From assembly GCA_027488395.1 (NCBI GenBank), contig JAIYBT010000005.1:62001-126000 (forward strand): a DNA stretch of 64,000 bases, written 5' to 3'. Below the pieces are notes generated by a model. That model ran no database searches, was not told the origin of the DNA, and saw only the letters and a program-made list of their open reading frames with translations. A program made the position numbers and the translations under genes. Positions 1 to 15,783 of the stretch are shown one piece after another (the first letter of the stretch is position 1; each line of letters starts with the position of its first letter). Source of the stretch: Methylophilaceae bacterium (GTDB taxonomy: Bacteria; Pseudomonadota; Gammaproteobacteria; Burkholderiales; Methylophilaceae).

Positions 1-836
1 TATGGAGCTTGCACCACCATAGCCATTTGAAAGTGAGTTATTTCCAGTGTTTTGATCTGTCCAAGTACCTAGGTTGATTAAACGCGAACCTTGCCCTGTG
101 TAAATAATGCCGCCAGTGTGGCTGGTGTTGCCAACAAACTCGATGGTGTGGCCATTCATGATTGCATGGGTGCTCTCAGAAAGCGCGGTGTTGCCTTCCA
201 ATCGGGTGGTGCCAACGCCAGTCAGTGTGCCCTGTTTCCAATCGAAGGCCCCTGTGATACGCAACACATCGTTGTTGTTTATCGTCGAGTCATTCAAGAT
301 CGTCTGTCCACCTTGTATGACCAAGCTTTCAACTGGATTTAATACGCCTCGACCTTCAATTTTCAAGATACCGTGATTGATAATGGTGCCTTTGATATTG
401 GCAGGGCCTGAAGATAATCTTAACGCCCCTGCACTTGCAATATTGATTTGTCCTGTGGTGCTATTGAGTCCTGATTGAATGTCGAGCATGCCTGCATTTA
501 CGTTTAATGTGCCTGTATTATTAAATGTAACACCGCCAGTAACGATAAACGCTGAATTTGAGTTCTTGTTAAATGTGCCTATATTTTCAAATATTGAGCT
601 GGCACCACCATAGCCATTTACAAGTAAGTTATAGCCAGTGTTTTGTTCTGTCCAAGTACCTAGGTTAATTAAACGTGAACCCTGCCCTGTGTAGATAATG
701 CCGCCAGTGTGGGTGGTGTTGCCTGCAAACTCCATGCGATGACCGTTAATAAGTGCATGGGGACTCTCAGCCAGCGTGGTGTCGCCCTCGAAGCGAGTGG
801 TGCCACTACCCGTCACTGTGCCCCCTTGCCAATAGC
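1..836. repeat. Direct DNA repeat, 591-bp period, inside the beta-helix gene
   Basis: Bases 1-245 and 592-836 are near copies at an offset of 591 bp (197 codons), with long identical stretches such as the shared segments around 70-130 and 661-721. This is an in-frame internal duplication of one repeat module. The first copy is cut by the window edge, so further copies may lie to the left. Confidence 0.8.
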
Positions 837-3408
837 TTGCACCACTGACCACTGCTAAACCATTGTTTTGAAAATTAGATTGATCTTCCAAGACCAATCC
901 ACCCAAATTTGCACGTTCGCTCAACCTTAAATCGCCATATCGGGCCAGTGTCAACGTGCCCGAGCCGATAATCTCAGCAATTTGTTGGATGTTATTTAGC
1001 CGCGTATTTGCCTTGCCAAGAAAAGCGGCATCCCCCGCTTGTGGTCGACCACCATTGCCTCCAGTCCAATTTGAATCCGCATTCCACAAGCCGCCATCTT
1101 CTGGGCCCGACCAATAAAAGTTAAAGCCTTTCATGCTAATGGTCAGCCCATCCACGTCATAAGTGGTGCCTAAACGATAATTGGCCGCTTGCGCAAAACG
1201 AATAGCATCGAATGCGCTGTTGGCTGTGCGGTCAGTCCAGGTGAGCACTTTATAGTCTCTACCACGCACTAATTCTTCAGTCACATTCACATTGAGGGTG
1301 CCGCCCAACGTGGCTGTGCCGCTAATGGCCAGCAGATCCGCCGCCGTGCGTGCTAAATCGATGTTGATTTGACCGGCAGAGGTTTGGGTCAAGTGACTAA
1401 AGATAGACAATTGACCCATGCTATTCAAAGCACCTGGTGACAAAGTGCCTGCGTTGTTGAAGGTACCTGCCGCGCTTATCGCACCGTTGCCGGTGATGGT
1501 GCCCGCGTTGTTGAAGGAGCTTCCCAGCACTGCGCCGCTGGCGATGTTGATTGTGCCTTGGTTAACAGCGTTAAAAAAATTCGTGGATAAAACACCTGCA
1601 TTGATATTGAGGATACTTGTGCTATCTACGTTGAGGTTTGCAATAAAACTAGACGCCCCAAGGTTGAGCGTGCCGTTGTTAAGCTCAGTTCTACCCCCTA
1701 GGCTGAGTCCGTCATGCGCATTCACAGTGCCGCCATTACTCACTCTTAGAAGCCCAAAATTGCTAACGTTAACGTTTCGATTTAAATGATAGGCTGTCGT
1801 TGAAAAGTCAATTGTTCTACCAACATTAATTTGACCTGTACTTGTGCCTCCGCCAACAATGGTCAATATGCCATTGTTTACATTTACGACACCAGCGTTG
1901 TTAAAGGCAAGGCCATGTTTCCCAATTTCAGTAATGATAAAGTTGTGAAAAGTGCCTTGGTTTTCAAATACACCACCTCTGTTGCTAATTGCATCCCCAC
2001 TAATCGTGTTAGTTGCAATGCCGCCATCCATCAGCCAACTACCCTGATTTACCACTTTAGCACCATTAAAAATGCTCAGGGTTGGGGTATCACCAAATGC
2101 ACCCCCAGCATTGGTAGTCCCTTTGGTAATGAGTGTCTGACCATCGATCAATGTTGTGTTTGCGCCACCTTGAATTCTAGTTGGACCATTTAGCTCTGTC
2201 GTCCCCATGCCCGCAATGGTGGCGCCATTGATGGACGTGTCGCCACTCACCCTAAGATAAGCATTGTTATTCAACCTGTTAGCAAAAAACATATTCAATT
2301 TCGCAAAGCTGCTATCGGCCTCTAAATTAAGCGTAGCACCATCCAATTGTATGCTGCCGCCTAAATTTAACCCATTGGTCGCTGTGACTGTGGCATCCTT
2401 AATCGTAAACGAACCGACACTATTGACACTTTGACTGCTATTGTTGAGTAAATAAGACCCATTGCTAAAGTTAAGCAAGCTATTACTTGCAATATTGAAT
2501 ACTCCAGTATGGGTGCCACCTCCCGAAACTTTCAAGCTGCCAGCATCAATATTCACCGTGCCACTGTTGTTAAACGTTAGGCCATACCCGCCAATTTCAG
2601 TAGTGCTGTTTTGGCTCTTGGTGTAGGTGCCTTGGTTTTCAAATACGCCGCCCGCATTGGCATCCCTATTGCCACTGATGGTGGTTGAATTGGTCGAGTT
2701 ATCTAACCATGTGCCTTTGTTGACTACGCGAGCACCTTGATCAATTTGCAGATAGTTAACACTGAAGGGCGAGGCGGAGAAATCTGAGTTGGATGTGGTG
2801 CCATTTAAGATAAGCGTGTGCGTGTCCTGCACGCGCGTTAGATTTGCGCCACCTCTAAACGATAAGTTCCCATTGATGACTGTTGAACCTGTACCTGCAA
2901 AAGCCCCGCCAAAAGTCTGCGTATTGCCACTCACGGTGAGTGAGCCATTGTTCGTCAGTGTGCCGCCTAAAGTAAGTTGACTCATACTGCTAGAACTACT
3001 GATATCGTATAAAGATAATGAACTGCCACCACTTAAAGATAAGGTTCCTGAGCCAACAACATTTTTAGCTACAGCATTAGTACCTACTGGAATGGCGATG
3101 GTGCTGTCTAGCAACACTGTATCTTCAAAGGTTGGTAGCCTGTTCAAGTCCCAACTGCTGAGAAAGTTCCATTGGCCAGACCCCCCCACCCAAGTAATCG
3201 TCGTCGCCAAAGCTGGGTCTGCCCCCAGCACGGTGAGCAATGCCATTGAAAGTCGAGACAGTGCAAAACGTTTGGATGCGCTGGTATTTTTATTGGCGTT
3301 TAGCTTCACTTTTTTTACACACACTTTCGCATTTGGCTTGGCCTTTGGCGTTGCTGTTGCGCTTGTGATTGATGAGGATATAGCTTGGTGAGCCAATACA
3401 GTTTTCAT
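1..3408 (-). CDS. Large secreted beta-helix repeat protein (partial, C-terminus beyond left edge)
   Basis: The reading frame starts at the ATG ending at 3408 and stays open for 1136 codons to the window edge. The N-terminus has a long basic region (about 45 residues, rich in Lys, Ala and Thr), then a hydrophobic stretch (RLSMALLTVLGADPALA), consistent with an extended signal peptide. The mature part opens with TTITWVGGSGQWNFLSSWD, a Trp-rich module common at the start of large beta-helical surface proteins. It continues with Asn/Gly/Thr/Ser-rich strands such as GGVFENQGTY and GLTFNNSGTVNI, repeated with variation. A second Trp-rich module (FYWSGPEDGGLWNADSNWTG) lies about 760 residues in. A palindromic element and -10-like hexamer lie about 75-120 bp upstream. 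It is likely an adhesin or surface-layer protein; no enzyme motif is seen. The secretion route and C-terminal anchor are outside the window. Confidence 0.85.
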   Translation of the reverse strand, partial: MKTVLAHQAISSSITSATATPKAKPNAKVCVKKVKLNANKNTSASKRFALSRLSMALLTVLGADPALATTITWVGGSGQWNFLSSWDLNRLPTFEDTVLLDSTIAIPVGTNAVAKNVVGSGTLSLSGGSSLSLYDISSSSSMSQLTLGGTLTNNGSLTVSGNTQTFGGAFAGTGSTVINGNLSFRGGANLTRVQDTHTLILNGTTSNSDFSASPFSVNYLQIDQGARVVNKGTWLDNSTNSTTISGNRDANAGGVFENQGTYTKSQNSTTEIGGYGLTFNNSGTVNIDAGSLKVSGGGTHTGVFNIASNSLLNFSNGSYLLNNSSQSVNSVGSFTIKDATVTATNGLNLGGSIQLDGATLNLEADSSFAKLNMFFANRLNNNAYLRVSGDTSINGATIAGMGTTELNGPTRIQGGANTTLIDGQTLITKGTTNAGGAFGDTPTLSIFNGAKVVNQGSWLMDGGIATNTISGDAISNRGGVFENQGTFHNFIITEIGKHGLAFNNAGVVNVNNGILTIVGGGTSTGQINVGRTIDFSTTAYHLNRNVNVSNFGLLRVSNGGTVNAHDGLSLGGRTELNNGTLNLGASSFIANLNVDSTSILNINAGVLSTNFFNAVNQGTINIASGAVLGSSFNNAGTITGNGAISAAGTFNNAGTLSPGALNSMGQLSIFSHLTQTSAGQINIDLARTAADLLAISGTATLGGTLNVNVTEELVRGRDYKVLTWTDRTANSAFDAIRFAQAANYRLGTTYDVDGLTISMKGFNFYWSGPEDGGLWNADSNWTGGNGGRPQAGDAAFLGKANTRLNNIQQIAEIIGSGTLTLARYGDLRLSERANLGGLVLEDQSNFQNNGLAVVSGASYWQGGTVTGSGTTRFEGDTTLAESPHALINGHRMEFAGNTTHTGGIIYTGQGSRLINLGTWTEQNTGYNLLVNGYGGASSIFENIGTFNKNSNSAFIVTGGVTFNNTGTLNVNAGMLDIQSGLNSTTGQINIASAGALRLSSGPANIKGTIINHGILKIEGRGVLNPVESLVIQGGQTILNDSTINNNDVLRITGAFDWKQGTLTGVGTTRLEGNTALSESTHAIMNGHTIEFVGNTSHTGGIIYTGQGSRLINLGTWTDQNTGNNSLSNGYGGASSI

Positions 3409-3481: not shown

Positions 3482-3526
3482 ATAGTAGATGGCATGCGAG
3501 GGGATGTCACCCCCCTGAACAGGGGG
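3482..3526 (-). promoter_or_regulatory. Palindromic activator-type promoter, copy 1 (upstream of the beta-helix gene)
   Basis: On the minus strand the sequence is CCCCCTGTTCAGGGGGG (3510-3526), then 22 nt, then the hexamer TACTAT (3487-3482). No good -35 box is present; the palindrome sits where it would be, centred near -43. Copies 2-4 have the same layout. The predicted leader to the ATG at 3408 is about 67 nt. The function is inferred from conservation of sequence and spacing. Confidence 0.7.
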
Positions 3527-3589
3527 TAGGGCGCTAGGATGTATTTATTCGCATTTGATTGCCAGCCAGCAACAATGCAAGTGATGTGA

Positions 3590-3964
3590 TCAATTGTCTT
3601 TGATCTTGCTACCACGCATCTCGCTGTCTTGCGTACTTTTGACATTAAACACGCTACCGTTCATGGTAATTCTGCCGTTTTTGGTCAATTCAATGCTCGA
3701 TTTGCCTGCTTTTAGCGTTAATTTGTCCCGCGCTGACAGCATGATTTCCCTGTCTTGATGCGTGTCAATGTCCTCGTTACTACTGTTTTGATTAAGCATG
3801 GTTTTGATCAAAATCAGTTCTTGTTCGAGTGCATTCACTTTGTTCTGCAAGGCGGTGATTTGCGTCGAATCATCCGCCATTAAGGGCATGGAAGCAGACA
3901 AGCAACTGCAAGCCAATAAACAAATTAACACCAACTTCACATGGTACGTTTTAAATAGTTGCAT
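3590..3964 (-). CDS. Small exported coiled-coil / beta-repeat protein
   Basis: This is a 124-residue protein with a signal peptide (about residues 1-30, ending LSASMPLMA), then a short coiled coil (ITALQNKVNALEQELILIKTM). The C-terminal part (LTLKAGKSSIELTKNG) resembles the alternating-strand repeats of phage-spike and VgrG-tip beta-helices. It overlaps the end of the TPR-secretin gene by 14 bp and is the last gene of the 8066-to-3590 operon, so translation is probably coupled. I do not recognise a named family. A trimeric coiled-coil stalk with a beta-helical tip would fit the sequence, but that is inference. Confidence 0.75.
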   Translation of the reverse strand: MQLFKTYHVKLVLICLLACSCLSASMPLMADDSTQITALQNKVNALEQELILIKTMLNQNSSNEDIDTHQDREIMLSARDKLTLKAGKSSIELTKNGRITMNGSVFNVKSTQDSEMRGSKIKDN

Positions 3965-5663
3965 GGTGTTTAAGGTTCTCCAGTAATGCTTTTTTCAGCG
4001 TTGCATCCTCTGGCCCACGCACTTGTGCATCGCCATAAGCAAAGCGACTAAAAGGCTGAATGCGGCTAATATCGCGGATTAATTTTTCGCTGCCGACCGT
4101 GGGCTCAATCACTTTGTCCCATAACTCAATTAATCTGCTTGTCGCGGGTAGATAGCTGACCGTTTTAGCAAAACTGCTGGGGAGCGAGGGGGTCACTAAG
4201 ATAATGGCTGAGCGCGCACGTTTTAAAGTGGATTTGTTGGAAAACAGCGTTTTAATCACTGGAATATCGCCTAATAGTGGCGTTCTCGATTCGGTATTGT
4301 CACCCACGGATTCTGATAGCCCACTTAAAATCAGGGTTTCGCCAAATTTAATATCTGCAGTCGCACTCACGGTTTGTTTAAAAGTACCCACCGCTTGTGT
4401 AAAGGTGCCTGCATTGGTATCGCTTAAAAAACTACGATCTACCTCAAGCTGAAAACGGGCGCCCTCGTCGGATATTTGTGAAGGGATAATTTTCATCGAA
4501 ACACCGACGTTGATTTTTTCGATTTGTGCCGATTGGATGCCTGATACATTCACATTCAGCTGATCGCCAATAAAAAAGCGTGAGGTTTCTCCCACAAAAG
4601 CGGTCAAGCTGGGTCTGGCGATGGCATCGTAATAGCGGTCGCCACGGTTAAAAATATTCAAATTGTAAGTGACATCTGGAATCGCAATGCTGCGCGTGAT
4701 GGTCCGGTTAGAGGTGTTGTTTTCTAAAAACCCAGTTTCACGTAATCTGGTGGAGGTCAGGTTGCGGTCGTAACCAAATACAGCTTGCAAGCCGTCTAAT
4801 AAATTGACGCCCGTTCTACTGGTGTTGCGCTTGTCAGACAAAATTAACGTCACATCGACAGTGAGTTGTTGCGTGCTTATGGGGTTGGGAGTGAGGGCGC
4901 GTTTTCTTGTTGGTTTGGTTTCTGGTGTCTCATCATCGGTTTGTGCGACTTGCTGGTAGTCATCTACTTGCGAGGTACGTAAAAGCGTTTGCGTTCTTAT
5001 TTTTAACCAGTCTTGTTGCGCTTCGCTGACTTGTTGTGGCTTATGGCTTAGTAGTGCACTTAACGGTTGCTGGTGACCTTGAGCAGCGAGTGCAAGCGCG
5101 AGCATGCGCCAAGCAATTGAGGATTCTGGTTGCAGTTGTAGCGCCCTTTTAGCGGCATGTTCTGCTAAATTTAATTTACCGCTAGCGTATGCTGCTGAGG
5201 CTAATCCTTCAAATACATAAGCATTGTCTGGTGCAGCAAGTGCCGCGGTGGAAAAGGATTCAAGGGCTTGTTGTGCATTTTGCTGTTGCATTGCCACCAC
5301 ACCAGCCAAGTAGTGCGGCCACATATCTTGCCCTGCAAATTGCCGCGACGCATTGTAGCCAGAGCTGGCAAGATTCAAAGATTCTGCATCACCCAGTGTG
5401 TGGTAAGTAAGACCAAGCAACAAGTGCGCATTTGCAGACTTTGGGTCCGTGAGCACCAACTCTTCAGCCAGTTTTTTTGCCTGCTCTATCTGTCCGTTTT
5501 TAAGTGCATCAAGCACTGCGAGTCTTTTTGACTGCAAGCTGTAATCGCTGACCTGACTTGGTGGTTTCCCTGTCTCGCTGATCTGAGTGGGTGTGGTACT
5601 GCAACTACTCAAGCAAATTAACAACGTGAGGAGTGGCAAATGGTTCATCTTAAACATGGGCAT
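3951..5663 (-). CDS. TPR-secretin lipoprotein (type II/IV pilus secretin-like)
   Basis: The 570-residue protein starts at an ATG with AAAGG 5 nt upstream. A lipoprotein signal ends at LICLSSC (Cys21). Residues about 45-215 form TPR-like helical repeats (DPKSANAHLLLGLTYHTLGD, APDNAYVFEGLASAAYASGK). A charged linker follows. The last 300 residues carry secretin-domain motifs: a beta-rich region, GETLILSGLSES, and TPLLGDIPVIKTLFSNKS followed by AIILVTPSLP. Secretins form gated outer-membrane rings for protein or filament export. Joining TPRs and a lipid anchor in one chain, with no gspE/F or pil assembly genes nearby, is unusual. It lies 24 bp after the low-complexity secreted protein and overlaps the next gene. 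Export of the neighbouring beta-helix protein is a plausible role, not shown. Confidence 0.85.
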   Translation of the reverse strand: MPMFKMNHLPLLTLLICLSSCSTTPTQISETGKPPSQVSDYSLQSKRLAVLDALKNGQIEQAKKLAEELVLTDPKSANAHLLLGLTYHTLGDAESLNLASSGYNASRQFAGQDMWPHYLAGVVAMQQQNAQQALESFSTAALAAPDNAYVFEGLASAAYASGKLNLAEHAAKRALQLQPESSIAWRMLALALAAQGHQQPLSALLSHKPQQVSEAQQDWLKIRTQTLLRTSQVDDYQQVAQTDDETPETKPTRKRALTPNPISTQQLTVDVTLILSDKRNTSRTGVNLLDGLQAVFGYDRNLTSTRLRETGFLENNTSNRTITRSIAIPDVTYNLNIFNRGDRYYDAIARPSLTAFVGETSRFFIGDQLNVNVSGIQSAQIEKINVGVSMKIIPSQISDEGARFQLEVDRSFLSDTNAGTFTQAVGTFKQTVSATADIKFGETLILSGLSESVGDNTESRTPLLGDIPVIKTLFSNKSTLKRARSAIILVTPSLPSSFAKTVSYLPATSRLIELWDKVIEPTVGSEKLIRDISRIQPFSRFAYGDAQVRGPEDATLKKALLENLKHHATI

Positions 5664-5687
5664 AACAACCTTTGTTAAATAATTTTT

Positions 5688-8066
5688 TTATTTAGCTTTG
5701 AGGGATTTGACTGCCTCTTTAGCCACCTGACCATCGACCTTAATCGCACCATTGATGTTGGCACCTTTCATTTTTGCGCCATTGATGCGGGTGCCACCTG
5801 TAGGCGCGAGGCCGGGGGTTGGTCCCCCTATCGGGCTATGCGGGTCTTGCGGTTTTGCGGGACCTTGTGCATCTGTCGGTCCTTTTGCACCGCCATTGCC
5901 CCGTAAATGCATGTCTTTTAAATCGCGGTCAGTAGCGACAACGCTGTCTTTGCCAAGCGGGTTAGGATTGGTGACCCCTGCGCCTAAACGCATACTCAGC
6001 GCACGATCTGCATTGGCTTTTTCCTCAGGGGTAAGTAAGCTAGGTGCACCGCCTTTGTCATTGGGATTTGGGCCAGCGGCACCGCCAAAGCGGGCAAGAT
6101 CTAAGCCGCGTTGCTGGCGACGTGCCTCTTGAGTGCCGATCCGACCGCCAGTACGCGCCGCTAATTGCGATGGGTCACCACCGCCAATATCCATAGGGTC
6201 AGGTGTGGAGCTGGCTTCTTTAGTTTCTTCAGTTTTAGCCGCTTCGGTGTCATCTGTCGTGGTTTCTTCAGCAGGAGGAGGGTCTTCTGATTTTTTATCA
6301 TCGTTGTTGTCATCATCGTCGTCATTGTTGTCATCATCATCGTCCTTACCATCACCATCTTTATCATTGCTAGATTGGTTGTTGTTGCCATTATTGTTGT
6401 TATTGTTATTGTTGTTGGTTGAGCCCGAACCAGCGCGTGTCGTTGAGGTAGATGTGGTCGTGCTGGTTTTTTGTTTGTTGCCGGCGCCATCACTGGCCCA
6501 AGTGCCTGCAGTTTTGGTCTCCGTCGTGCTGGTAATGTTGCCGCTATTGTCTCGAGTCACTGAGACGGTGTTAGATTCGTAGGTGCCATCGGCAAAATAG
6601 GTGGTGGTGGTTCTAGCGTTGCCATCTGCACTTTGTACACCACCGCCGTCATCCCCGACTTTTACATGGCCTTGATTGGGGCCAATTAAAATATCATCAG
6701 CGGGGGTCGTGACGCTGGATGAGGGGTTGTTTGCAGGTTGTGCCCCATGCCCTGGCGTATCGACTTTTTCTGATGCAGGTTGCTGGCTGGTTGGCGTTTG
6801 TGCGCTTGCTGGGGAATTAAATTCTGAATCCTCTAAAATAGGTGCTTGTGGCCCATGTTGTTCATCGTTGAGAGGGGCGCTGGTGGCAGGAGTAGCTGTA
6901 TCGTTACTGGGATTAGTGGTGGGTTGTTTGCCCGTGGCAGGTTGACCCGCATTAGTTCTACCGCCTGCGCCCGCGGCTAAACGTGCTGAGGCAGCATCTT
7001 GTCTGGCTTGGCTGCCTCCAATGCCCGAGGTCTGCGTTTTTACAATGCCAGTGCCCTCTTTTGCGGTCCCTGCGCCACTGGTTGTCCCTTTGCCACCACT
7101 GCCACCTGCTTGTACTTTGGCCGAAACACTTTTACCTAGTGCCGAAGCGCCTGCAGCGCCTTGTGATAATGCGGAGCGACCGAGTTTTTCTTTATTTATT
7201 TTTGCAGCCGCTGCAAGTTGTGCCTTGTTAGCCGTTTTGGCCGCTTCTATGGCTTTTTTGGCATCCAATTCGGCTTGCAATTTTTTCTGCACTTCAATTT
7301 CTCTGCCCAAACGGTCACCCAGACTTTCACCTGGTTTTGCAGAAATGAACCCTTGTTCGTCAAGCACTTTATGGGCACCCTTTTCAAATACAACGCGGGC
7401 AGCTTCAGGGGTTGTAACTCCAAGTTTTGCGCCTTCTTTGACGGTTTCAATCACAATCGGGTTATCCTCATTGGCCCCCAAATCTTGCAGCGCCCCGCTG
7501 ATCGCAGCTAAATTAGAAAATACAGATCTGCCGAGTTTGTCTATGGGCACCAGTGTTGTGACTGCTTTTCCGAACACGGTATCAATCGCTGCTTGCCCAA
7601 CTTCTTTATCTGCGGTTTCTTTGGGATTTTTGCTGCGACTAATGGCATCGACCACCGCGTCACGCACCTTTGGGTTTGCCGAAACGATATCTAGGTCAGC
7701 AGCGGCGCCTGTGATTTGATGGATACGTGTCTTGGCCTCGGTTTCTGTTGCAGGGTCCGTTGCCTCTGCCGCAATTTTGCCTGCGAGGTCTGGTTTTACG
7801 CTTAAGTTTTTGAGTGCGTCTTCAACAAAATCCCTCTGTAATTGAACCGCGTCACCCGCTGTTGGCGCGGCATCCTCGGTAGACGTATCGTTTTTTTGAT
7901 CTTTGCTACTTTTTTGTAGACGCCGATCAGTGGTCAACTGTTTGGCTGGGTTACCTGCAGTGCTTTTGCTTTTTTGCTGTGCAGGCGGCTTTTGGTCTGC
8001 ATGACTCCATTGATGATTGAGTAACGTGGTGACTAACAATAATGCAAGGCAGGGAGTAAGTTTCAT
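5688..8066 (-). CDS. Low-complexity secreted protein with Asn- and Asp-rich tracts
   Basis: The chosen ATG (8066) has AGGA 8 nt upstream and begins a clear signal peptide (MKLTPCLALLLVTTLLNHQW, cleavage after SHA). The frame extends 33 codons further up, but that extension would cover the promoter-like palindrome region. The 792-residue protein has an Ala/Lys-rich helical N-terminal third, a Gly/Ser/Ala linker, and a Thr/Ser-rich strand region (TTTYFADGTYESNTV). Next come poly-Asn and an acidic run (DKDGDGKDDDDDNN) that could bind calcium, and finally a short pentapeptide-like tail (INGAKMKGANINGAIKVDG). It is the first gene of an operon with the TPR-secretin. Its function is unknown; a matrix or surface-scaffold role is a guess. 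Confidence 0.8.
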   Translation of the reverse strand: MKLTPCLALLLVTTLLNHQWSHADQKPPAQQKSKSTAGNPAKQLTTDRRLQKSSKDQKNDTSTEDAAPTAGDAVQLQRDFVEDALKNLSVKPDLAGKIAAEATDPATETEAKTRIHQITGAAADLDIVSANPKVRDAVVDAISRSKNPKETADKEVGQAAIDTVFGKAVTTLVPIDKLGRSVFSNLAAISGALQDLGANEDNPIVIETVKEGAKLGVTTPEAARVVFEKGAHKVLDEQGFISAKPGESLGDRLGREIEVQKKLQAELDAKKAIEAAKTANKAQLAAAAKINKEKLGRSALSQGAAGASALGKSVSAKVQAGGSGGKGTTSGAGTAKEGTGIVKTQTSGIGGSQARQDAASARLAAGAGGRTNAGQPATGKQPTTNPSNDTATPATSAPLNDEQHGPQAPILEDSEFNSPASAQTPTSQQPASEKVDTPGHGAQPANNPSSSVTTPADDILIGPNQGHVKVGDDGGGVQSADGNARTTTTYFADGTYESNTVSVTRDNSGNITSTTETKTAGTWASDGAGNKQKTSTTTSTSTTRAGSGSTNNNNNNNNNGNNNQSSNDKDGDGKDDDDDNNDDDDDNNDDKKSEDPPPAEETTTDDTEAAKTEETKEASSTPDPMDIGGGDPSQLAARTGGRIGTQEARRQQRGLDLARFGGAAGPNPNDKGGAPSLLTPEEKANADRALSMRLGAGVTNPNPLGKDSVVATDRDLKDMHLRGNGGAKGPTDAQGPAKPQDPHSPIGGPTPGLAPTGGTRINGAKMKGANINGAIKVDGQVAKEAVKSLKAK
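6287..6420. repeat. Trinucleotide-type low-complexity tract
   Basis: Runs of tcatcg/tcg and ttg/att triplets encode the poly-Asp and poly-Asn stretches of the secreted protein. Because the units are triplets, slippage would change the tract length without breaking the frame. Confidence 0.75.
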
Positions 8067-8142
8067 CAGTGTTTTCCTAGAACGCCAACTTAAAAGGAAT
8101 GTTGTTAGAAAGTAACGCGCGTTACGATATAACTCATTCTTT

Positions 8143-8188
8143 AGTGTATGGGTATTTGAAAGCAATGTGACCCCCCTAAACAGGGGGG
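8143..8188 (-). promoter_or_regulatory. Palindromic activator-type promoter, copy 2 (upstream of the low-complexity/secretin operon)
   Basis: On the minus strand CCCCCCTGTTTAGGGGGG (8188-8171) is followed after 22 nt by TACACT (8148-8143). The palindrome is the cleanest of the four copies. The predicted leader to the ATG at 8066 is about 70 nt. It would control the three-gene operon ending at 3590. Confidence 0.7.
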
Positions 8189-8240
8189 ATGAAGCATCAT
8201 GCTTGGTGAGTAAACCTAATTAACAATTGTGAGTTGGGTA

Positions 8241-10124
8241 TTAAGCAGTTTGTTGAAACGCTGCGCAAGGGATCACCATGTGTAGCCATAAGCCTGAGGG
8301 TTGGTTTGCACGAATATGGATTTCACCACCCAGTAGGGAGGTGCGTTTTTGGATATTGATCAAACCACGGCCTTTGGACTGGTCATAGCCAGCGGGTAAG
8401 CCGATGCCATTGTCTGCAATCACAAGCGATAGATGCTGTTGCGTTGCGCGCATCTTGACCACGACTTCGCTTGCCTGCGCATGTCGAATCACGTTCGATA
8501 TGGCTTCGCGGATAATTCGGCCTAAATTGAGTGCTTGCGGCTGGGTGAGGTGTAAGTGATCATCATCAACTTGGTTGTCCCACTGCAATCGTATGTGTAC
8601 ATCACTCAACCGTTTTTCACACTCTACGCGGTAATCCGCCATGGCATAGGTGAGGGGTACGCTTTCAGTGCCTGCACGCGATACTACATCGCGCAAATCT
8701 TGCAATGCGGATCGTGCCAGCTCAGCATTATTCGGATTTTGTGCACGATAGACCAAGGTAAGTAGCTTGGCGCCGAGATCATCATGCAGATCTTGATAAA
8801 TGCGCTCGCGTTCTTCAAGCGTGGCTTGTTCTTTGAGCATGGTTTGCAGTTGCGCAAAGTTTTGATCAAGTTCTCGATGTTTGGAAATCACACGCTGCTC
8901 GAGTTCTCGGTTGAGTTGCTCGTAACTGTTAAGCGCACCGACATAGCGGGAAGTCATCATCAGCCCCACAATTAAAAATAATACCGGTGCTGAGAACTGC
9001 ATTAAATATTCATCACCGCTCACCCATTGGTTAATCATGGGCAGATTGGTGTGGATCAGCCAATCATGAAACGCAAACAACAAAATAACGCTTAAGGTCA
9101 TGAGCAAAATGCGCGCATCTTGATTACGGGCAATAAAGCCCGCCCTTGCCAGTAAGCCTAGCCCGTAGAGCACGAACACCATGGTCATCAGGTGCCAACA
9201 ATCGGTCATGAAGGTGAAGTAAGCATCGGGGACTGCGAGTAAGGTGATTGGCGACAGCAGCAGCATGCCCCACAATAGTCGCTTAAAGCGTTGAATGCGA
9301 ATGCCGACAAAGTCGAGCAAAGATATCAGCCACAAGCTGGCGATTGCTTGAAAGCTGGCGTTTACAAATATTTCCCACAGCGGTGTCTTTAGCGGGGCAT
9401 GGATGATATAAAAATTGAGCGATTGAATTGCCCAAACAAACGCAGCCAAGCCAAACAAGCCATAGGCAGTATCCTGTTTTCGGCGCCACCAAAGGCTTAG
9501 CATGAGTAAGCCGATGCCGATGATCAAGAGGCTGGCAGTCTGGTTCAAGGTGATGCGCACAAACACGGCTTCATCAAAACGAGGTTGTAACTGTTGCAAC
9601 ACATCGATTTGCGGCGGTGACAGCATGGCTTGTGAGTGCGGTGGCGCAATCACCCGCACCCATAGCGTGTTGTTGGTTTTTTTGAGCAGGCTAGGCGGGA
9701 TCGCAAATAATAGTGGGCGGTTCCAGTGTCTTGCCACCGGCTCAATAAACGAACCACCAGAACCAATGGCTTGGCCATTTAAATACGCTTCTGCGTTGAG
9801 ACTCAGCCGTGAAAGGTATACCCCGTAGACGGCTTTCGGCTGTAAGGCAGGATAATCAAATTGCAGGCGATACCAGCCGATACCGTCTGCACGTGGGTGG
9901 TTGATTTTCCAAATGTCGGGCAGTTGAATCGGTTGCCAATCTGCTTGTGCTGTCGGTGGGCTGGCCGCTGTTGATGCCACAAACTGCCCTTGGGGGAGCG
10001 TTATCGTGGACGGGGATACACTGGCTGGAGCCGCCCACACATGGATGGCGACGACATTCAGCATTAGCCATACGGCAATTTGCCAAACGATGTGATTGCT
10101 GCTGTGAATATGCTTCAAAGACAT
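8241..10124 (-). CDS. 7TM sensor histidine kinase (NarX/UhpB-like, HisKA_3)
   Basis: This 627-residue protein has a signal sequence (residues 1-31). A periplasmic jelly-roll, sugar-binding-like domain follows (WYRLQFDYP, LSLNAEAYLNGQAIGSGGSF; about 35-185). Seven or so membrane helices (about 190-400) are typical of 7TM-DISM receptors. A coiled coil leads into the dimerisation/phosphoacceptor helix ERERIYQDLHDDLGAKLLTL, with the phospho-His near residue 447. The C-terminal ATPase has REAISNVIRHAQA (N box), DNGIGLP and GRGLINIQKR. Its ATG overlaps the stop codon of the preceding barrel gene (TAATG), so the two are translationally coupled. The obvious partner is the response regulator at 11454. 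The ligand is unknown; the periplasmic fold suggests a carbohydrate or cell-surface signal. Confidence 0.9.
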   Translation of the reverse strand: MSLKHIHSSNHIVWQIAVWLMLNVVAIHVWAAPASVSPSTITLPQGQFVASTAASPPTAQADWQPIQLPDIWKINHPRADGIGWYRLQFDYPALQPKAVYGVYLSRLSLNAEAYLNGQAIGSGGSFIEPVARHWNRPLLFAIPPSLLKKTNNTLWVRVIAPPHSQAMLSPPQIDVLQQLQPRFDEAVFVRITLNQTASLLIIGIGLLMLSLWWRRKQDTAYGLFGLAAFVWAIQSLNFYIIHAPLKTPLWEIFVNASFQAIASLWLISLLDFVGIRIQRFKRLLWGMLLLSPITLLAVPDAYFTFMTDCWHLMTMVFVLYGLGLLARAGFIARNQDARILLMTLSVILLFAFHDWLIHTNLPMINQWVSGDEYLMQFSAPVLFLIVGLMMTSRYVGALNSYEQLNRELEQRVISKHRELDQNFAQLQTMLKEQATLEERERIYQDLHDDLGAKLLTLVYRAQNPNNAELARSALQDLRDVVSRAGTESVPLTYAMADYRVECEKRLSDVHIRLQWDNQVDDDHLHLTQPQALNLGRIIREAISNVIRHAQASEVVVKMRATQQHLSLVIADNGIGLPAGYDQSKGRGLINIQKRTSLLGGEIHIRANQPSGLWLHMVIPCAAFQQTA

Positions 10125-11353
10125 TACCTAAATAAGGTGGTGACTTGCACATACAAATCCCGCACATCGACAAAATTGCGGCCTGCTGTGGTGTCTTGCA
10201 TTTCAATTTTAACAATGATGGGGAGCGGCAATCTGCCTTGTTGCCATGCCTGAATGCCACTCCAAGTAGCGCTGAGGCGGTATTGATCGGCGCGGGTGTA
10301 AGTGTCGCGTTCGATCGGGGCGGTATCGCTGCCTAGGCTTGAGCGATAACGGTCCGATTGTTTTTCGTAGCGGTGATAAGTGGCGGCCAAACGCCAATTT
10401 TGTTGACGAAATCCAAGCTCGATATCGGCTTCATAAAAATCGCCCAAGTCACGACTAAGACGTTGTTTGCTACTGGCGAGCGCTAACGGTTGCCCCGCCT
10501 CAGGAATACGCATGGTGGCGCGATCAGCGGTTTGCCAGTTGTAATCGGCCAGTAAGCGCAGATCAAACGCATGTCCTAGATCAAGAAAATATTCTAAGCG
10601 CGACCGAATATCGGTGCTGCCATCCCCTGCAGGCATATCTAACAAATTGTCAGGATCATCTTTTTTTGCAATCCCAGGCCGCACGCCTAGCCCAATAATT
10701 AAACTCTCTTGTGGTGTGCGGATCGCGCGCCACAATACGCCTAGCGTCGGGTCACTTAGGCCTTCGCTACGCTGGTGTTTGATCGGTTTGTAGCCATAGC
10801 CAAACGCGGGGTTACTCAAGATTTGTTGAATCCCGGCACTGGTCAGCGGAGGGATGCCCGTACCCGCGGGTGCAAACGGAAAATTGCCCGCAGAAACGGC
10901 TTGGCTAGGATTAAATGCAGGATTAAACCCAACATTGCCGTCAGAGACATTCAAGGTGGCTTGGGTTTCCGTCACCACGTACGGAATAATCATGCCAAAG
11001 GTCAAGTTGGCGTGGATGCCGTAGCCTAGGGTTAAGGTGCTGATATGGTTGGTGGTTTCGGTGTGAAAGCGGGAAGTACCCAAGGTGGCATTGCTGCCGA
11101 GTAAAGCCAGGCTAGAAAACACCTGGCGATTTAAATCAATGCCATCAAACGCATTGCCCAAACCCACGCGCTGACCTTGATTGTCATAACGCGCATCATA
11201 ATGATTGGTGCGTTGTTCAAAGCGAACTCCCCAGCCACTTTCGGGTGCCATGGTATCGAGCCCAAACAGACTGGAAAGCGGGATGGTGTCAGCGGCCAGT
11301 GTTGAAAAGCTTAGCCCAAGGCCTGCACATGCTGCCAAAACCCCCCATGCCAA
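10124..11353 (-). CDS. Predicted outer-membrane beta-barrel protein
   Basis: After a hydrophobic leader (WGVLAACAGLGLSFSTLA, cleavage before ADTIPLSS) the protein consists of alternating amphipathic strands with aromatic girdles (RLEYFLDLGHAFDLRLLADY, WRLAATYHRYEKQ). This pattern fits transporter-type barrels of the phenol/MetA-degradation porin superfamily. The start is uncertain. The TTG at 11353 has GAGG 7 nt upstream and gives 409 residues, but its signal peptide lacks a basic n-region. A GTG about 24 codons upstream, or an ATG at 11560, would place the palindrome at 11373-11391 inside the coding region. The gene is fused by a TAATG overlap to the sensor kinase, so it may be an accessory sensing or transport component of the same pathway. 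Confidence 0.65.
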   Translation of the reverse strand: MAWGVLAACAGLGLSFSTLAADTIPLSSLFGLDTMAPESGWGVRFEQRTNHYDARYDNQGQRVGLGNAFDGIDLNRQVFSSLALLGSNATLGTSRFHTETTNHISTLTLGYGIHANLTFGMIIPYVVTETQATLNVSDGNVGFNPAFNPSQAVSAGNFPFAPAGTGIPPLTSAGIQQILSNPAFGYGYKPIKHQRSEGLSDPTLGVLWRAIRTPQESLIIGLGVRPGIAKKDDPDNLLDMPAGDGSTDIRSRLEYFLDLGHAFDLRLLADYNWQTADRATMRIPEAGQPLALASSKQRLSRDLGDFYEADIELGFRQQNWRLAATYHRYEKQSDRYRSSLGSDTAPIERDTYTRADQYRLSATWSGIQAWQQGRLPLPIIVKIEMQDTTAGRNFVDVRDLYVQVTTLFR

Positions 11354-11372
11354 TAGATGGCCTCGAGGCGCT

Positions 11373-11419
11373 CCCCCCCTGTTTGCGGGGGAGGTAATCG
11401 TTTTAAATTCGTATATAGT
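11373..11419 (+). promoter_or_regulatory. Palindromic activator-type promoter, copy 3 (upstream of the response regulator)
   Basis: CCCCCCCTGTTTGCGGGGG (11373-11391) is followed after 22 nt by TATAGT (11414-11419), the best -10 of the four copies. The predicted leader to the ATG at 11454 is about 28 nt. Read on the other strand, the same palindrome lies 20 bp before the TTG start of the barrel gene and could act there as a repressor site or leader hairpin. Autoregulation is inferred. Confidence 0.7.
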
Positions 11420-11453
11420 CACTTTATTATTACTTGCCTGTGATGCAAAACGT

Positions 11454-12086
11454 ATGAATACTGCTTTTATTCTTGAAGATACCCCAGAATCACAACTGTG
11501 GTTATCAGAAGTATTACACAGTAGTTTTCCTGGAATTACCATTTTTTCTGCCAACACCATTGCAGGGGGATTAGCACAGCTTGCTCACAGTGCAGCGGTT
11601 GACATTGCACTGATTGATCTTAACTTACCAGACGGCAGTGGGATTACCCTGATTGAGTGGTTTAATCGCCACTCACCGCACACCATCTGCGTGGTGGCCA
11701 GCATTTACGATGATGATCACCATATTTTTCCAGCGCTACGTGCCGGTGCGCACGGTTATTTACTTAAAGACCAACCGCAAGCAAGTATTGTACAAGCGCT
11801 CAATGGCATTATTACCGGCCAGCCGCCGTTATCACCCGCCATCGCCCGCAAGTTGCTCAATCATTTCCATGTGCCATATAGTGTGCCTAAACAAGCGCTA
11901 CTGACTGAGCGTGAAAAGGAAGTGTTATCCATCATCGCCAAGGGCATGACCATGGCCGAAACTGCCAATATGTTAGGCTTAAAACGCAATACCATTGCCA
12001 GTTATGTTAAAGAAATTTATCGCAAACTGAATGTCTCGTCGCGGGCAGAAGCCGCCATCAGTGCCCAAAAAATGGGCTTAATCTAG
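11454..12086 (+). CDS. NarL/FixJ-type response regulator (REC plus LuxR HTH)
   Basis: This is a 210-residue regulator of standard family length. The receiver domain (1-120) has acidic residues E8/D9, the phosphoacceptor Asp55 in IALIDLNLPDGSG, and the conserved Lys105 in GYLLKD. The LuxR-type HTH (about 147-207) has LLTEREKEVLSIIAKGMT and LKRNTIASYVKEIYRKLNV. The ATG at 11454 is chosen because it begins the receiver domain exactly; the frame extends upstream but would run through the palindrome and antisense to the barrel gene. It is divergent from the barrel/sensor kinase operon, its likely partner, and is preceded by palindrome copy 3. I infer that it is the activator binding all four palindromes. 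Confidence 0.9.
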   Translation: MNTAFILEDTPESQLWLSEVLHSSFPGITIFSANTIAGGLAQLAHSAAVDIALIDLNLPDGSGITLIEWFNRHSPHTICVVASIYDDDHHIFPALRAGAHGYLLKDQPQASIVQALNGIITGQPPLSPAIARKLLNHFHVPYSVPKQALLTEREKEVLSIIAKGMTMAETANMLGLKRNTIASYVKEIYRKLNVSSRAEAAISAQKMGLI

Positions 12087-12144
12087 ATTCATCCCATTTC
12101 ATCGCGCGCCCACAGCCACCTCGAACATCAAGCGAGCGAGTCAT

Positions 12145-12190
12145 CCCCCCTGTTTGCGGGGTGTCTAATTGTGGCTAATCAGGGTAAATT
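12145..12190 (+). promoter_or_regulatory. Palindromic activator-type promoter, copy 4 (upstream of the PEP-CTERM beta-helix gene)
   Basis: CCCCCCTGTTTGCGGGGT (12145-12162) is followed after 22 nt by TAAATT (12185-12190). The right arm is one G shorter than in copy 3, but the distance from the TGTT core to the -10 hexamer is the same. The predicted leader to the ATG at 12238 is about 41 nt. Confidence 0.65.
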
Positions 12191-12237: not shown

Positions 12238-15200
12238 ATGTTGAATTTACCTACCCTTCCTGTCTCTTGTGCATTGCATCCGCTCAAAGTCGCGCTATTG
12301 GCCGCCTTTACCCTAGCGCAACCCGTGTATGGCGCCACTTGGACCTGGTCTGGCAACACGAATGCCAACTGGTCTAACCCGGGGAATTGGCTTGAGGATA
12401 GTCCACCTGTCAGCGCCAGTGATACTGAACTGATGTTTGATGCCGCTGGCGCACCTTCCAGCGTAAACGATGTTGTGGGTGATTTTACGCTGCATGGACT
12501 CACCTTGGGGCCCACTGCCGCCTCGCCGCGCCTCAGTGGAAACGCCATTCGTTTTCAGGGCGCGGGGACTTACTTAACCATGCTCACCAGTAGTGGGCAT
12601 GCTGTGGTCAGTAACGCATTGATTGTGGATGACGACTTGCAAATTGCAGGCGGTTCCTCCCTTACCAGTCAGCTCTTTTTACAAGGTGCCATCAGTGGTA
12701 ATGGCGGGCTTCAACTCATCAGTGGGACCACAGTGATCAGTGGTAATAATCGCTTTAGTGGCGCTACCCGCGTGGCGGCTGGCGCAACACTGGGCATCGC
12801 GGGCGGCGCGCTGGCTGGCTCAAGCAGTCTTCAAGTGGCACATGGCGGCGAACTGCAAATCATACATAGTAATGTTTCAACCACACTTAATAATCCGATT
12901 GCGTTGGGTGGTGTGTTGAGTAGCAGTGCTGGGTTTGTGCGCACGCCACTTGGGCAGTTTGCTGGTGGTAATGTGAACGGTCCGATTACGCTCATCGATC
13001 ATGCCGACATCACTGCCTTGAGCGGGACGGCAAGCCGACCTGTACGTTTTAATGTGAATGGTGCCGTAGACCGTGCTGGCCATGCCCTGAACTTAGTGAC
13101 AGATGGCGCGAATAACCAGCTCAATATCAACGCAATCAATGGCGCCGGCAATCTGACGGTGCGCCCAGACGGCGGCAGCATCAGTGTGGGCGCGGTGACG
13201 GGTGCAGGAACGCTGACTGCAACGGGATTGGGCGGCGCTGCAACCATTGCAAGCCTTACAGGGGATGGTGGCATCTTGGTCGATTTTGCCACCAACAGTG
13301 GCGGACAGTTGACCATCACGGGTGCACTCAGTGGCCAACGTGACATTGATGTTCGGGGCGGCACGTTAAACCTTGGCACCGTGGTGCCATTAAATGTGAT
13401 GGGTCAGATCAAACTGAGTGGTCAAGGCACCTTGAGTGTCGGGCGCGAGAGTTATCTGGGCAATGCCAGTCCAGTGCTGCAATTTGACAACGGTGGTGAA
13501 TTGATACTTCGGGACGGCCTAGGCCTCACCCGCGACATGGTGACCATGGGTGGTCGTGGTCGTGTCCTGTTTGGGGGTAGTAACAATTTGGTCAGTGGCA
13601 ATATCAGCGGCACAGGTGGGCTGTTTGTAGGCAGTGCCAGTGGTAGCCCAACCATTACCTTGTCTGGCAATAATCGCTTTACCGGCGGTCTAGCAATTGC
13701 GAATCCTGGTACTGTCAATAGCGCTGGTATTCCGGATACAACTACCGTCCGATTTAGCCAAGACAGCAACCTTGGCGATGCTGCTGGCGCGATTTTGCTT
13801 GGCGGTACGCTGGTGTTGCCAGATGCTTACACCTTGGGTCGGCAGTTAACCGTAAGTGGTACAGCGGCCACCCTCAATGCCGCAGGTGATCATACGCTCA
13901 ATGGCACCCTCTCTGGGGATGGTCGCTTGAATTTGACGGGGGCTGCCCGCTACTTTTTAACCGGCAACGCCACCCATACTGGTGGTGTGGCGCTGGCAGG
14001 TCAGTCCAGTGGTCAGGCGGCGGTAGTGGTGATTGATAGCGATGCGCGATTGGGCGGGTCAAATGGGGTATTCAATATTGGCCGTGTTGACCCGCGTAAT
14101 GCATTAGCAGTGCAGGCGGGGACCTTGGTGGCTGCAGCGAATCTAGATATTGCTGCCACACGCAGTACCAGTTTTCGCAATATGACGGTCGATACCAATG
14201 GGTTTAATGTGGTGTTTAATCAAGCCATCAGTGGCTTAGGCATGACCAAAACGGGCTTGGGGACTTGGACATTAAACACAGCCAATAGCAACAACAGTAA
14301 CGACAATCGAGTGCAGGTGCTACAAGGCACATTGGCGTTGGGTACGGATGAGGCGCTCGCCACCCGCGCCAATGTAAGCTTGGCGTCAGATGCTAGACTA
14401 TCACTCGGCGGCCATGTGCTTGGTCCTAAATCGCTAGACACGCAGGTTGGCAGCACGGTTGATTTGGGTCAAGGTGGCCGATTAGCGCCACTGTTTGGCG
14501 AGCTGAATGGCACACTTACTGGCCTTGGGCGTTTGGTGGTCGGCCGCGCTGGCTTTGTGCCTGCCAGCGTGACGCTCAATGGCGCCAACAATTTTATAGG
14601 CGGCGTGCAGGTCACCCATGGTAGTCGCTTAAGCTTAGGGCATGTGGATGCACTCGGTGCTTCTGGCAACCAGATCAGCCTCGATAACGGCACGCTGGTG
14701 GCGCTGGCAAGCCTGTCGGCGCCGCTGGTGATTAACGATGCTACCCCATTAGATATTGGGGTGGGTGGCGCTGGCTTTGCTGCGCGCGGGCAGTCCATTC
14801 TGCTTGAGCGAACATTGACTGGACCGCTTAGGCTGAATATTCAGGAGGGCAGCTTACCGGGCACGACGGAAAAGTATGACGTTAGGTTAGTGAGTCGTCA
14901 AAATCAGTTTGTCGGGGATGTCATCTTGGGCGATCCACAAGGCTTTGGCGCAGCGGTGGTGGGCATCACTGCCGATGGGTCGCTAGGCGCAACAACCAAT
15001 CGACTGATATTAGGCAAGCGTGTGTTCGATGGTGAGAGTACCCGCAGTGCCATCGGCGGTTTACGTGCTTGGGATGGATTGACGCTGGCCGCCAGCCGTA
15101 TTGTATTGCTCGATGGGCAAGAGGGCGACACCGCAGGGTTTATTGATACCAACGGCCATACCGTGGTGGTGGCGGGCAGTATCGGTGAATTAAACACACA

Positions 15201-15783
15201 ACTTGGCTTGCTTAAAACTGGGGCGGGTACCTTGGTGTTGAACGGCAATCAATCGTATACAGGGCTCACCACGGTGGACAGTGGTGCGCTGGGCGGCCAT
15301 GGCGAGGTTGAACAACTTGTGGTGAACAACGCCACGTTAACGCCAGGTGAAAGTGCTGGCTTGTTTCGTGTGCGTCAGGATGTGCGCATGCAAGCAGGCG
15401 TGCTCGACATGGAACTAGGGGGGCTGGTACGAGGTGTTGAATATGACGCGATTGATGTCGGCGGCTTGTTGGATATTGGTGTGGATACCTTGTTGCATGT
15501 GCGCTTTATTGACGGCTTTCAAGCGCAAGCGGGCGATCAATTTGCGCTGGTCGATGCAGACACCGATGTCTTAGGGAGTTTTGCGAATGTGGCCAATGGC
15601 GATCGTTTGTCCGTGCTTGGTGGCGGCAGTTTTAGGGTGCGTTACGGCATTGGTCTAGGTGTATCGTTGAGTGACTTTCAATCAGCGGTGCCAGTGCCTG
15701 AACCTACCAACAGCGCTTTAATGCTAATTGGGTTATTGGGTATCGTCGGTGCAGTACGGTTTCGCCGCGTCAAACAGCAATAA
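12238..15783 (+). CDS. PEP-CTERM-anchored beta-helix surface protein (autotransporter-repeat type)
   Basis: The 1181-residue protein has a signal peptide (hydrophobic VALLAAFTLAQPVYG, about residues 20-34) followed by the module ATWTWSGNTNANWSNPGNW. It continues with many autotransporter-associated strand repeats (GGLQLISGTTVISGNNRFSG, GVALAG, TLVLNGNQSYTGLTTVDSGA). Near the C-terminus it ends in VPVPEPTNSALMLIGLLG, then a hydrophobic helix and a basic tail (RFRRVKQQ), the classical PEP-CTERM signal. Proteins with this signal are processed by exosortase in exopolysaccharide-producing Gram-negative bacteria. No exosortase lies in the window. It shares the Trp-rich entry module with the beta-helix gene at the left edge and the same upstream palindrome, so the two are probably co-expressed. 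Confidence 0.9.
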   Translation: MLNLPTLPVSCALHPLKVALLAAFTLAQPVYGATWTWSGNTNANWSNPGNWLEDSPPVSASDTELMFDAAGAPSSVNDVVGDFTLHGLTLGPTAASPRLSGNAIRFQGAGTYLTMLTSSGHAVVSNALIVDDDLQIAGGSSLTSQLFLQGAISGNGGLQLISGTTVISGNNRFSGATRVAAGATLGIAGGALAGSSSLQVAHGGELQIIHSNVSTTLNNPIALGGVLSSSAGFVRTPLGQFAGGNVNGPITLIDHADITALSGTASRPVRFNVNGAVDRAGHALNLVTDGANNQLNINAINGAGNLTVRPDGGSISVGAVTGAGTLTATGLGGAATIASLTGDGGILVDFATNSGGQLTITGALSGQRDIDVRGGTLNLGTVVPLNVMGQIKLSGQGTLSVGRESYLGNASPVLQFDNGGELILRDGLGLTRDMVTMGGRGRVLFGGSNNLVSGNISGTGGLFVGSASGSPTITLSGNNRFTGGLAIANPGTVNSAGIPDTTTVRFSQDSNLGDAAGAILLGGTLVLPDAYTLGRQLTVSGTAATLNAAGDHTLNGTLSGDGRLNLTGAARYFLTGNATHTGGVALAGQSSGQAAVVVIDSDARLGGSNGVFNIGRVDPRNALAVQAGTLVAAANLDIAATRSTSFRNMTVDTNGFNVVFNQAISGLGMTKTGLGTWTLNTANSNNSNDNRVQVLQGTLALGTDEALATRANVSLASDARLSLGGHVLGPKSLDTQVGSTVDLGQGGRLAPLFGELNGTLTGLGRLVVGRAGFVPASVTLNGANNFIGGVQVTHGSRLSLGHVDALGASGNQISLDNGTLVALASLSAPLVINDATPLDIGVGGAGFAARGQSILLERTLTGPLRLNIQEGSLPGTTEKYDVRLVSRQNQFVGDVILGDPQGFGAAVVGITADGSLGATTNRLILGKRVFDGESTRSAIGGLRAWDGLTLAASRIVLLDGQEGDTAGFIDTNGHTVVVAGSIGELNTQLGLLKTGAGTLVLNGNQSYTGLTTVDSGALGGHGEVEQLVVNNATLTPGESAGLFRVRQDVRMQAGVLDMELGGLVRGVEYDAIDVGGLLDIGVDTLLHVRFIDGFQAQAGDQFALVDADTDVLGSFANVANGDRLSVLGGGSFRVRYGIGLGVSLSDFQSAVPVPEPTNSALMLIGLLGIVGAVRFRRVKQQ

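Follow-up and report, generated by a model that had tools for sequence, protein, structure and literature searches.

A cluster of four C-run/G-run palindromes, each followed at a fixed distance by a -10-like hexamer, lies in the window analysed here, a stretch of 64,000 nucleotides (nt) from a methanol-consuming Methylophilaceae bacterium (contig JAIYBT010000005.1, positions 62,001 to 126,000), in a region that also encodes a NarL/LuxR-type response regulator, a sensor histidine kinase and several surface or exported proteins. The palindromes are candidate operators of that regulator. In positions of the window, the elements are:

3510..3526, - strand: palindromic candidate operator C5-TGTTCA-G6, upstream of beta-helix gene 1
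3482..3487, - strand (read 3487-3482): -10-like hexamer TACTAT, 31.5 nt from the axis of the palindrome 3510..3526
8171..8188, - strand: palindromic candidate operator C6-TGTTTA-G6, upstream of the low-complexity/TPR-secretin operon (TPR, tetratricopeptide repeat)
8143..8148, - strand (read 8148-8143): -10-like hexamer TACACT, predicted to serve the palindrome 8171..8188
11373..11391, + strand: palindromic candidate operator C7-TGTTTGC-G5, upstream of the response regulator, in a divergent region common with the barrel-kinase gene pair
11414..11419, + strand: -10-like hexamer TATAGT, invariant in nine aligned Methylophilus regions
12145..12161, + strand: palindromic candidate operator C6-TGTTTGC-G4, upstream of the PEP-CTERM beta-helix gene
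12185..12190, + strand: -10-like hexamer TAAATT, predicted to serve the palindrome 12145..12161

All four palindromes are present where the original prediction had placed them, except that the last ends at 12161 and not at 12162. The distance from the first T of TGTT to the TANNNT hexamer, described there as exactly 34 nt, has that value at all four window sites but ranges from 33 to 35 in relatives, and the quantity conserved across relatives is a hexamer at +30 to +32 from the palindrome axis (31 or 31.5 nt at the four window sites). Likewise, the TGTT core is found at these four sites but is dispensable, as relatives carry TGAACT, TATCCA, TGAACG or TAATCA. A hexamer at -12 to -7 puts the axis at -42 to -44; provided that the hexamers here act as -10 elements, the palindromes would be centred at -43 to -43.5, in agreement with the centre near -43 that had been proposed. 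The orientation of each element toward the next gene is given by the -10 and not by the palindrome itself, since palindromes with a loop of six are almost symmetric.

The strict pattern CCCCCTGTTNNSGGGG matches the window four times, whereas no match arose in any of 40 first-order Markov simulations. A considerably relaxed pattern (C4, any 6-7 bases, G4) discriminates less well: it starts six times, with overlaps, at these four places, and the simulations gave 1.2 starts on average and 4 at most. The source genome comprises 2.45 Mb in 27 contigs and is 92% complete. Over all of it, the strict pattern returned the same four matches and its reversed control none, while CCCCCTNNNNNVGGGG, in which the core is free, found the same four places only, with one match for its reversed control. 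The earlier statement that the window holds no further copy therefore extends to the entire 2.45-Mb genome. Many copies genome-wide had been named as the mark of a repetitive extragenic palindromic (REP)-like repeat; the scan returned only four, all within one 8.7-kb stretch and each before a gene.

Spacing was assessed by scanning for C4+ N5-8 G4+ over 17 sources, selected for holding the regulator, a match to the putative barrel protein or an off-target match, which yielded 43 palindromes that were not picked by hand. Of the 36 intergenic palindromes, 33 have a TANNNT hexamer 30 to 32 nt from the axis on one or both strands, versus none of the seven genic ones (Fisher P 4e-6 for the relabelled table, in which many sites are orthologous and hence not independent). 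The original automatic labels gave 31/34 intergenic and 2/9 genic palindromes with a hexamer; the sites relabelled as intergenic, at 11383 in the window and at L081:9683 (L and G numbers denote loci and genomes), lie within 5' extensions of open reading frames judged false. By chance, about 2 of 36 would be expected at the window-wide hexamer rate and about 6 of 36 at an AT-rich rate of 0.03; the TANNNT frequency on the + strand of the window is 0.011 per base. A hand-collected set of 32 sites, chosen after reading and reduced wherever 40 downstream bases were at least 70% alike, left 24 non-redundant sites, 23 of which have the hexamer at this distance; other windows of equal width averaged 1.2 such sites and reached at most 5. 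Column counts over 23 non-redundant sites revealed no consensus -35, as had been anticipated from the window; TG is common just after the G-run, whose edge, together with the next bases, occupies the -35 position. An operator near -42, by or over the -35 place and at fixed spacing from the -10, corresponds to the class II arrangement, if the hexamer is the -10.

The palindromes lie among the following genes:

1..3408, - strand: beta-helix surface protein gene (beta-helix gene 1), running off the window, 1560 amino acids (aa) as a whole, with a PEP-CTERM-like end
3590..3964, - strand: small exported protein gene, third gene of the operon (operon predicted from spacing)
3951..5663, - strand: TPR and secretin-domain lipoprotein gene (Pfam Secretin 4e-24, TPR_16 6.5e-13)
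5688..8066, - strand: low-complexity exported protein gene, with an ATG at 8066 and an AGGAAA ribosome-binding-like site
8241..10124, - strand: sensor histidine kinase gene (signal peptide, jelly-roll-like N-terminal part, seven hydrophobic segments, HATPase_c)
10124..11353, - strand: putative outer-membrane barrel protein gene, the barrel judged by eye from the sequence and the start codon uncertain
11454..12086, + strand: NarL/LuxR-type response regulator gene (Pfam Response_reg 6.6e-15, GerE helix-turn-helix (HTH) 7.1e-15)
12238..15783, + strand: PEP-CTERM beta-helix surface protein gene (PATR repeats 6.1e-10; PEP_CTERM 17.4 bits, cut-off 16)

Both domains of the regulator (Response_reg and GerE) exceed the Pfam cut-off, and its residues D9, D55 and K105, corresponding to the acidic pocket, the phospho-acceptor Asp and the Lys, are invariant in eight aligned regulators, distant ones included. 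The histidine kinase, the probable partner of the regulator, carries its seven hydrophobic segments at residues ~191-399, and its matches to the jelly-roll family BetaGal_ABD2 (0.0012) and to HisKA_3 fall under the Pfam cut-offs. The operator at 11373-11391 is common to two divergent groups, the regulator rightward and the putative barrel and kinase genes leftward. No Pfam or NCBIfam match was obtained for the putative barrel protein, and its two matches among PDB sequences (E about 0.6) were not significant; yet the protein is kept beside the kinase and the regulator in another order. For the low-complexity gene, the ATG at 8066 is a likelier start than the TTG at 8165, which is disfavoured because it lies upstream of the predicted transcription start. 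The part of beta-helix gene 1 inside the window also has no Pfam or NCBIfam match. Its PEP-CTERM-like tail, read by eye, lies beyond the window edge and corrects the original description, which had named only the second beta-helix gene as PEP-CTERM. The TPR lipoprotein fused to a secretin domain (3951-5663) adjoins the beta-helix genes of the predicted regulon. A single exosortase match was found, elsewhere in the genome.

The association of the palindrome with the regulator was followed in 22 Methylophilus genomes, within a pattern scan of 61 genomes. An ortholog of the regulator, at least 81% identical, occurs in nine of the 22; among the matches listed, the next regulators are at most 36% identical over most of the protein, with short HTH-only matches reaching 38%. 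A palindrome lies just upstream of the regulator in all nine genomes with the ortholog, versus one pattern match in the 13 genomes without it (Fisher P 2e-5), and this exception (G010) lacks the hexamer and is followed by a T-run. When the divergent regions of these nine genomes are aligned, CCCCTGTTT-CGGGG and TATAGT are invariant. The kinase gene is present at the regulator locus in eight of the nine genomes, and in the ninth (G007) the contig stops after the barrel gene. Across the 61 genomes, the strict pattern gave 18 real matches in 10 genomes; none was found in the 39 genomes outside the genus, where variant cores would escape it.

Beyond the genus, a search with the barrel protein over 349 genomes of the order yielded matches in 5; the corresponding figures were 4 among 120 genomes of the family of G284 and 3 among 369 of the class, and these counts take in the genus itself and three weak matches. 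In G284, which belongs to another family of the order, the barrel, regulator and kinase are 53%, 58% and 42% identical, respectively, and three palindromes are present: one with TATGCT at +31.5 upstream of the kinase, one with TATCAT at +30 upstream of the regulator, and one with TAGAAT at +31 upstream of a lipoprotein-like gene. G458 has one palindrome before the kinase (+32) and another before the regulator (+30). In G415, a single palindrome separates a kinase-regulator operon from a divergent gene, and hexamers at +31.5 on both sides imply that the site may fire both ways. In G571, from another order, a palindrome precedes a barrel-kinase-regulator operon, with CATACT at +31.5 and no strict TANNNT. 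Two genomes with weak barrel matches, G792 (L113, at a contig end) and G469 (L114), showed no palindrome in the stretches scanned. A contig scan outside Methylophilus gave a sole match, which is actinobacterial (34%).

When 399 genomes of the order were searched with the regulator, 395 gave matches, and the best 30 loci, three of them from Methylophilus, were scanned over 1500 bases either side or were already known. Among the loci listed, the regulators of G106 (61%) and G150 (56%) both have a palindrome and hexamer upstream, and no barrel match was found in either genome. Thus, in the other family, all five genomes with regulators 56-61% identical (G284, G415, G458, G106 and G150) have a palindrome before the regulator or the histidine kinase-response regulator operon, with TANNNT at axis +30 to +31.5. 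At the 24 listed loci with regulators at most 49% identical, no site toward the regulator was found within the 1500 bases either side, although one of them (L142) has a site pointing away from it. The resulting Fisher table, 14/14 versus 0/24, leaves out G571 and the paralogous regulator of G284.

That paralogous kinase/regulator pair (L096:13853-16623, - strand; regulator 49% identical) is adjoined by CCCCCGCGTTCGCGGG palindromes (L096:16682 and L096:18599). Each of them has GAAGAT at axis +31.5, and they represent a possible sister operator of like geometry. CCC/GGG palindromes near regulators 36-38% identical (L140:1676, L142:2220 and 2243, L147:2395) lack the -10 geometry toward the regulator and are possibly related operators. 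In G284 (L096:5831), G106 and G150 (L131, L132), the -10 hexamer lies ~10 nt before the ATG of the regulator, which suggests a very short leader or none.

Several types of PEP-CTERM genes follow the palindrome within the genus, where PEP-CTERM targets were found in G009, G002, G003, G014, G021 and G005. PEP227, whose PEP-CTERM match is above the cut-off, has a palindrome and hexamer upstream in G002, G005, G007, G009, G014 and G021; its close homologs (75-100% identical) are confined to six of the 22 genomes, all with the regulator and all with palindrome and -10, while four further genomes, one of which (G018) lacks the regulator, have weak or short matches only. PEP531-type genes are preceded by palindrome and hexamer in G005, G014 and G021, as are a gene of G003 that resembles PEP531 by eye and has PEP-CTERM above the cut-off and, also judged by eye, a PEP531-like gene of G012 (a 192-aa open frame in which a PEP-CTERM tail was not seen); G007 carries the PEP531-type palindrome site as well. 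The PEP531 palindromes at L083:5467, L085:5488 and L086:14359 combine T6 with TAGTCT at axis +31.5, and the element may double as the intrinsic terminator of the preceding gene and a promoter operator. PEP272 is preceded by both elements in G002 and G009. At L086:2579 in G005, a palindrome with TACTAT at axis +30 precedes a gene whose tail, judged by eye, resembles PEP-CTERM; this palindrome lies ~7.7 kb from the operator of the regulator.

An ortholog of the TPR-secretin gene was found in one of the 21 other genus genomes, G012 (M. aquaticus), at 69% identity. The low-complexity gene of G012 has an upstream palindrome with a different core and TATCAT at axis +31.5, and another palindrome, with TACGAT at +32, precedes a 326-aa gene. 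On the divergent barrel-kinase side, TACACT lies 31-32 nt from the axis in six of the nine genomes, with the annotated ATG one base on, and is missing in G000, G003 and G012; it is possible that the barrel-kinase pair is driven from the same operator via leaderless transcripts.

Taken together, the four palindromes are quite likely the operators of the regulator encoded at 11454-12086, acting by class II activation on a set of promoters that includes its own. The palindromes, their uniqueness in the genome, their spacing, their conservation and their co-occurrence with the regulator are observed, and binding, activation, phosphorylation, transcription starts and signal are extrapolated from these patterns. 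A dimer of the phosphorylated regulator would bind both arms, C-run and G-run, with its centre near -43, beside and over the -35 place, and would activate weak sigma-70-type promoters in which a usable -10 is not accompanied by a consensus -35. By driving its own gene, the regulator would create positive feedback; it would also switch on genes for exosortase-sorted PEP-CTERM surface proteins and, in the source genome and M. aquaticus, the low-complexity/TPR-secretin operon. The signal would be supplied by the adjacent histidine kinase with seven transmembrane segments (7TM), perhaps also through the putative barrel protein. The original idea of one class II regulon under the linked LuxR/NarL-type activator thus gains support from the co-occurrence, the conserved spacing and the palindromes of the other family.

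Several observations weigh against this interpretation. Three intergenic palindromes lack the hexamer: L089, which is the G010 match without a regulator, L096:11025, which is followed by a terminator-like T-run, and L112:3984, which has CATACT. The reversed control of the strict pattern produced seven matches in 5 of the 61 genomes, and G021, which has the regulator, carries a second match (L090) inside a gene and without a hexamer. Sites from related genomes do not count as independent evidence, G014 and G021 being nearly identical. The palindrome is still present in G571, where the regulator is only 40-41% identical, so that the relationship between motif and regulator identity has no sharp cut-off. 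The PEP531 sites of G014, G021 and G005 are followed by T6 and look terminator-like, and a repressor acting at the same place would leave the same pattern as an activator.

This last point defines the most serious competitor, namely that the regulator, bound to the palindromes, acts as a repressor, or as both repressor and activator, through anti-activation or negative autoregulation. Repression is conceivable because the site covers the -35 region, where a bound protein would equally block RNA polymerase, and in six genomes the regulator palindrome is 38-39 nt away from the annotated start of the barrel gene, so that the two divergent sides could differ. It is nevertheless unlikely: the lack of a consensus -35 in 23 non-redundant sites means that the promoters should be weak unaided, the -10 keeps a distance of 30-32 nt, as would suit contact with polymerase rather than simple blocking, and -43 is close to the -42.5 of the lux box, where both arms are required for activation according to the available text (PMC3376562). 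Direct binding by the linked regulator is itself deduced, and co-occurrence is partly built in because the regulator gene is a target, which leaves room for a different transcription factor, encoded elsewhere, whose sites are merely co-located with the regulator. Against such a factor, which is improbable, the searched pattern with -10 geometry was found in the 22 genus genomes only alongside this regulator, and a palindrome stands before the regulator or its operon in all five other-family genomes with at least 56% identity, two of them without a barrel match.

Transcription terminators or REP-like repeats between genes would fit the fact that three of the four palindromes follow a stop codon by 53-64 nt, as well as the T6 tracts at the PEP531 sites of G014, G021 and G005. 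No T-run follows any of the four window palindromes, however, the genome holds only four copies, the -10 lies at a conserved distance, and at the regulator site, between divergent genes, no terminator is needed. A terminator as the main role was rejected on the grounds of the missing T-runs and the conserved spacing, and a REP-like or dispersed repeat on the grounds of the four copies; this explanation is highly improbable. The least credible alternative is the sigma-54/PrsR 'PEP-CTERM box' system of other Proteobacteria, whose appeal is that the targets are PEP-CTERM genes, many of which elsewhere have a predicted sigma-54 motif and PrsR in the account available (PMC1569441), that pepA of Aquincola depends on RpoN1 (PMC9850573, as far as the text was available) and that GG-N10-GC pairs occur near the four sites, at scattered positions. 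No sigma-54 site was found at a constant place in the four promoters, the best scores being 7-8 of 11, and the best score for PrsR (TIGR02915) in the 92% complete genome was 398 bits versus a cut-off of 502.6. For lack of a constant-position site and of a PrsR above cut-off, the sigma-54 box was rejected, and its chance of being correct is close to nil.

The activator regulon favoured here has partial counterparts among described systems. The available text of Haft et al. (2006, PMC1569441) describes, for many proteobacterial PEP-CTERM genes, a predicted sigma-54 box associated with PrsK-PrsR, and for pepA of Aquincola tertiaricarbonis the RpoN1 dependence was shown experimentally (PMC9850573, available portion). 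As with PrsK-PrsR, the present system combines a two-component system with one motif before many exosortase-sorted genes, proposed from motif-regulator co-occurrence; unlike PrsK-PrsR, in which an NtrC-type activator acts at predicted -24/-12 promoters, the regulator is of NarL/LuxR type and the motif is a C/G-run palindrome at about -43 with a -10 (PMC1569441, same portion). The nearest described two-component system in kind, judged by analogy from the accessible part of its description, is BmfSR of Rubrivivax gelatinosus, which pairs a 7TM kinase bearing a putative carbohydrate-binding periplasmic part with an adjoining LuxR-type regulator and promotes matrix and biofilm formation (PMC3684757). 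BmfSR differs in having phoH/ybeY as neighbours and, in the available part of that text, no barrel partner; the likeness is one of description, and the text nowhere uses the words promoter, binding site or palindrome (PMC3684757).

The lux box of LuxR is a 20-bp inverted repeat centred at -42.5, a position similar to that of the palindromes (PMC3376562, available part). LuxR differs in being ligand-bound and not a response regulator. The sequence of the lux box differs from the C/G-run palindrome, as do the operators of NarL, VraR and DevR. These last three (PDB 1a04, 5hev, 3c3w) share the receiver and HTH architecture of the regulator and are among its best PDB sequence matches. RamA of Corynebacterium glutamicum is also LuxR-type, with common binding motifs containing GGGG or CCCC; in the text available, it differs in that the runs are single, with no palindrome at a fixed promoter spacing, and that it represses at bca (PMC4847777). 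In Desulfovibrio, a regulator of PEP-CTERM genes was mapped by DNA-affinity-purified-chip (DAP-chip) analysis, as given in the part of the report available (PMC3333781). A comparative genomics study of Methylophilus mentions PEP-CTERM once, and 'response regulator' and 'two-component' are absent from its available portion (PMC8399692). No report of this operator or regulon was found among the papers listed in literature searches, which covered open-licence PMC papers, and a search for class II promoters of NarL likewise yielded no paper.

The palindrome goes with one signalling protein, which probably uses it to turn on surface proteins, and the result is a well-conserved regulon prediction that looks like a second regulon for PEP-CTERM genes beside sigma-54/PrsR control, offering a second route of control for exosortase-sorted surface proteins. 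The chances are about even that this is a sigma-70-type regulon run by a previously undescribed three-part system (putative barrel protein, 7TM kinase and NarL-type regulator) in which the operator stands in for the -35 at a rigid distance, and in which the operator-promoter module fronts changing surface genes between species while the regulator remains constant. According to the available text of Haft et al., further PEP-CTERM regulators and motifs are still to be found (PMC1569441), and the present system is a candidate for that gap in the case of PEP-CTERM genes without a sigma-54 box, comprising a regulator, an operator, a promoter geometry and a set of targets, with conservation that reaches beyond Methylophilus into another family of the order. 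It may also provide a handle on what methylotrophs sense when changing their surface.

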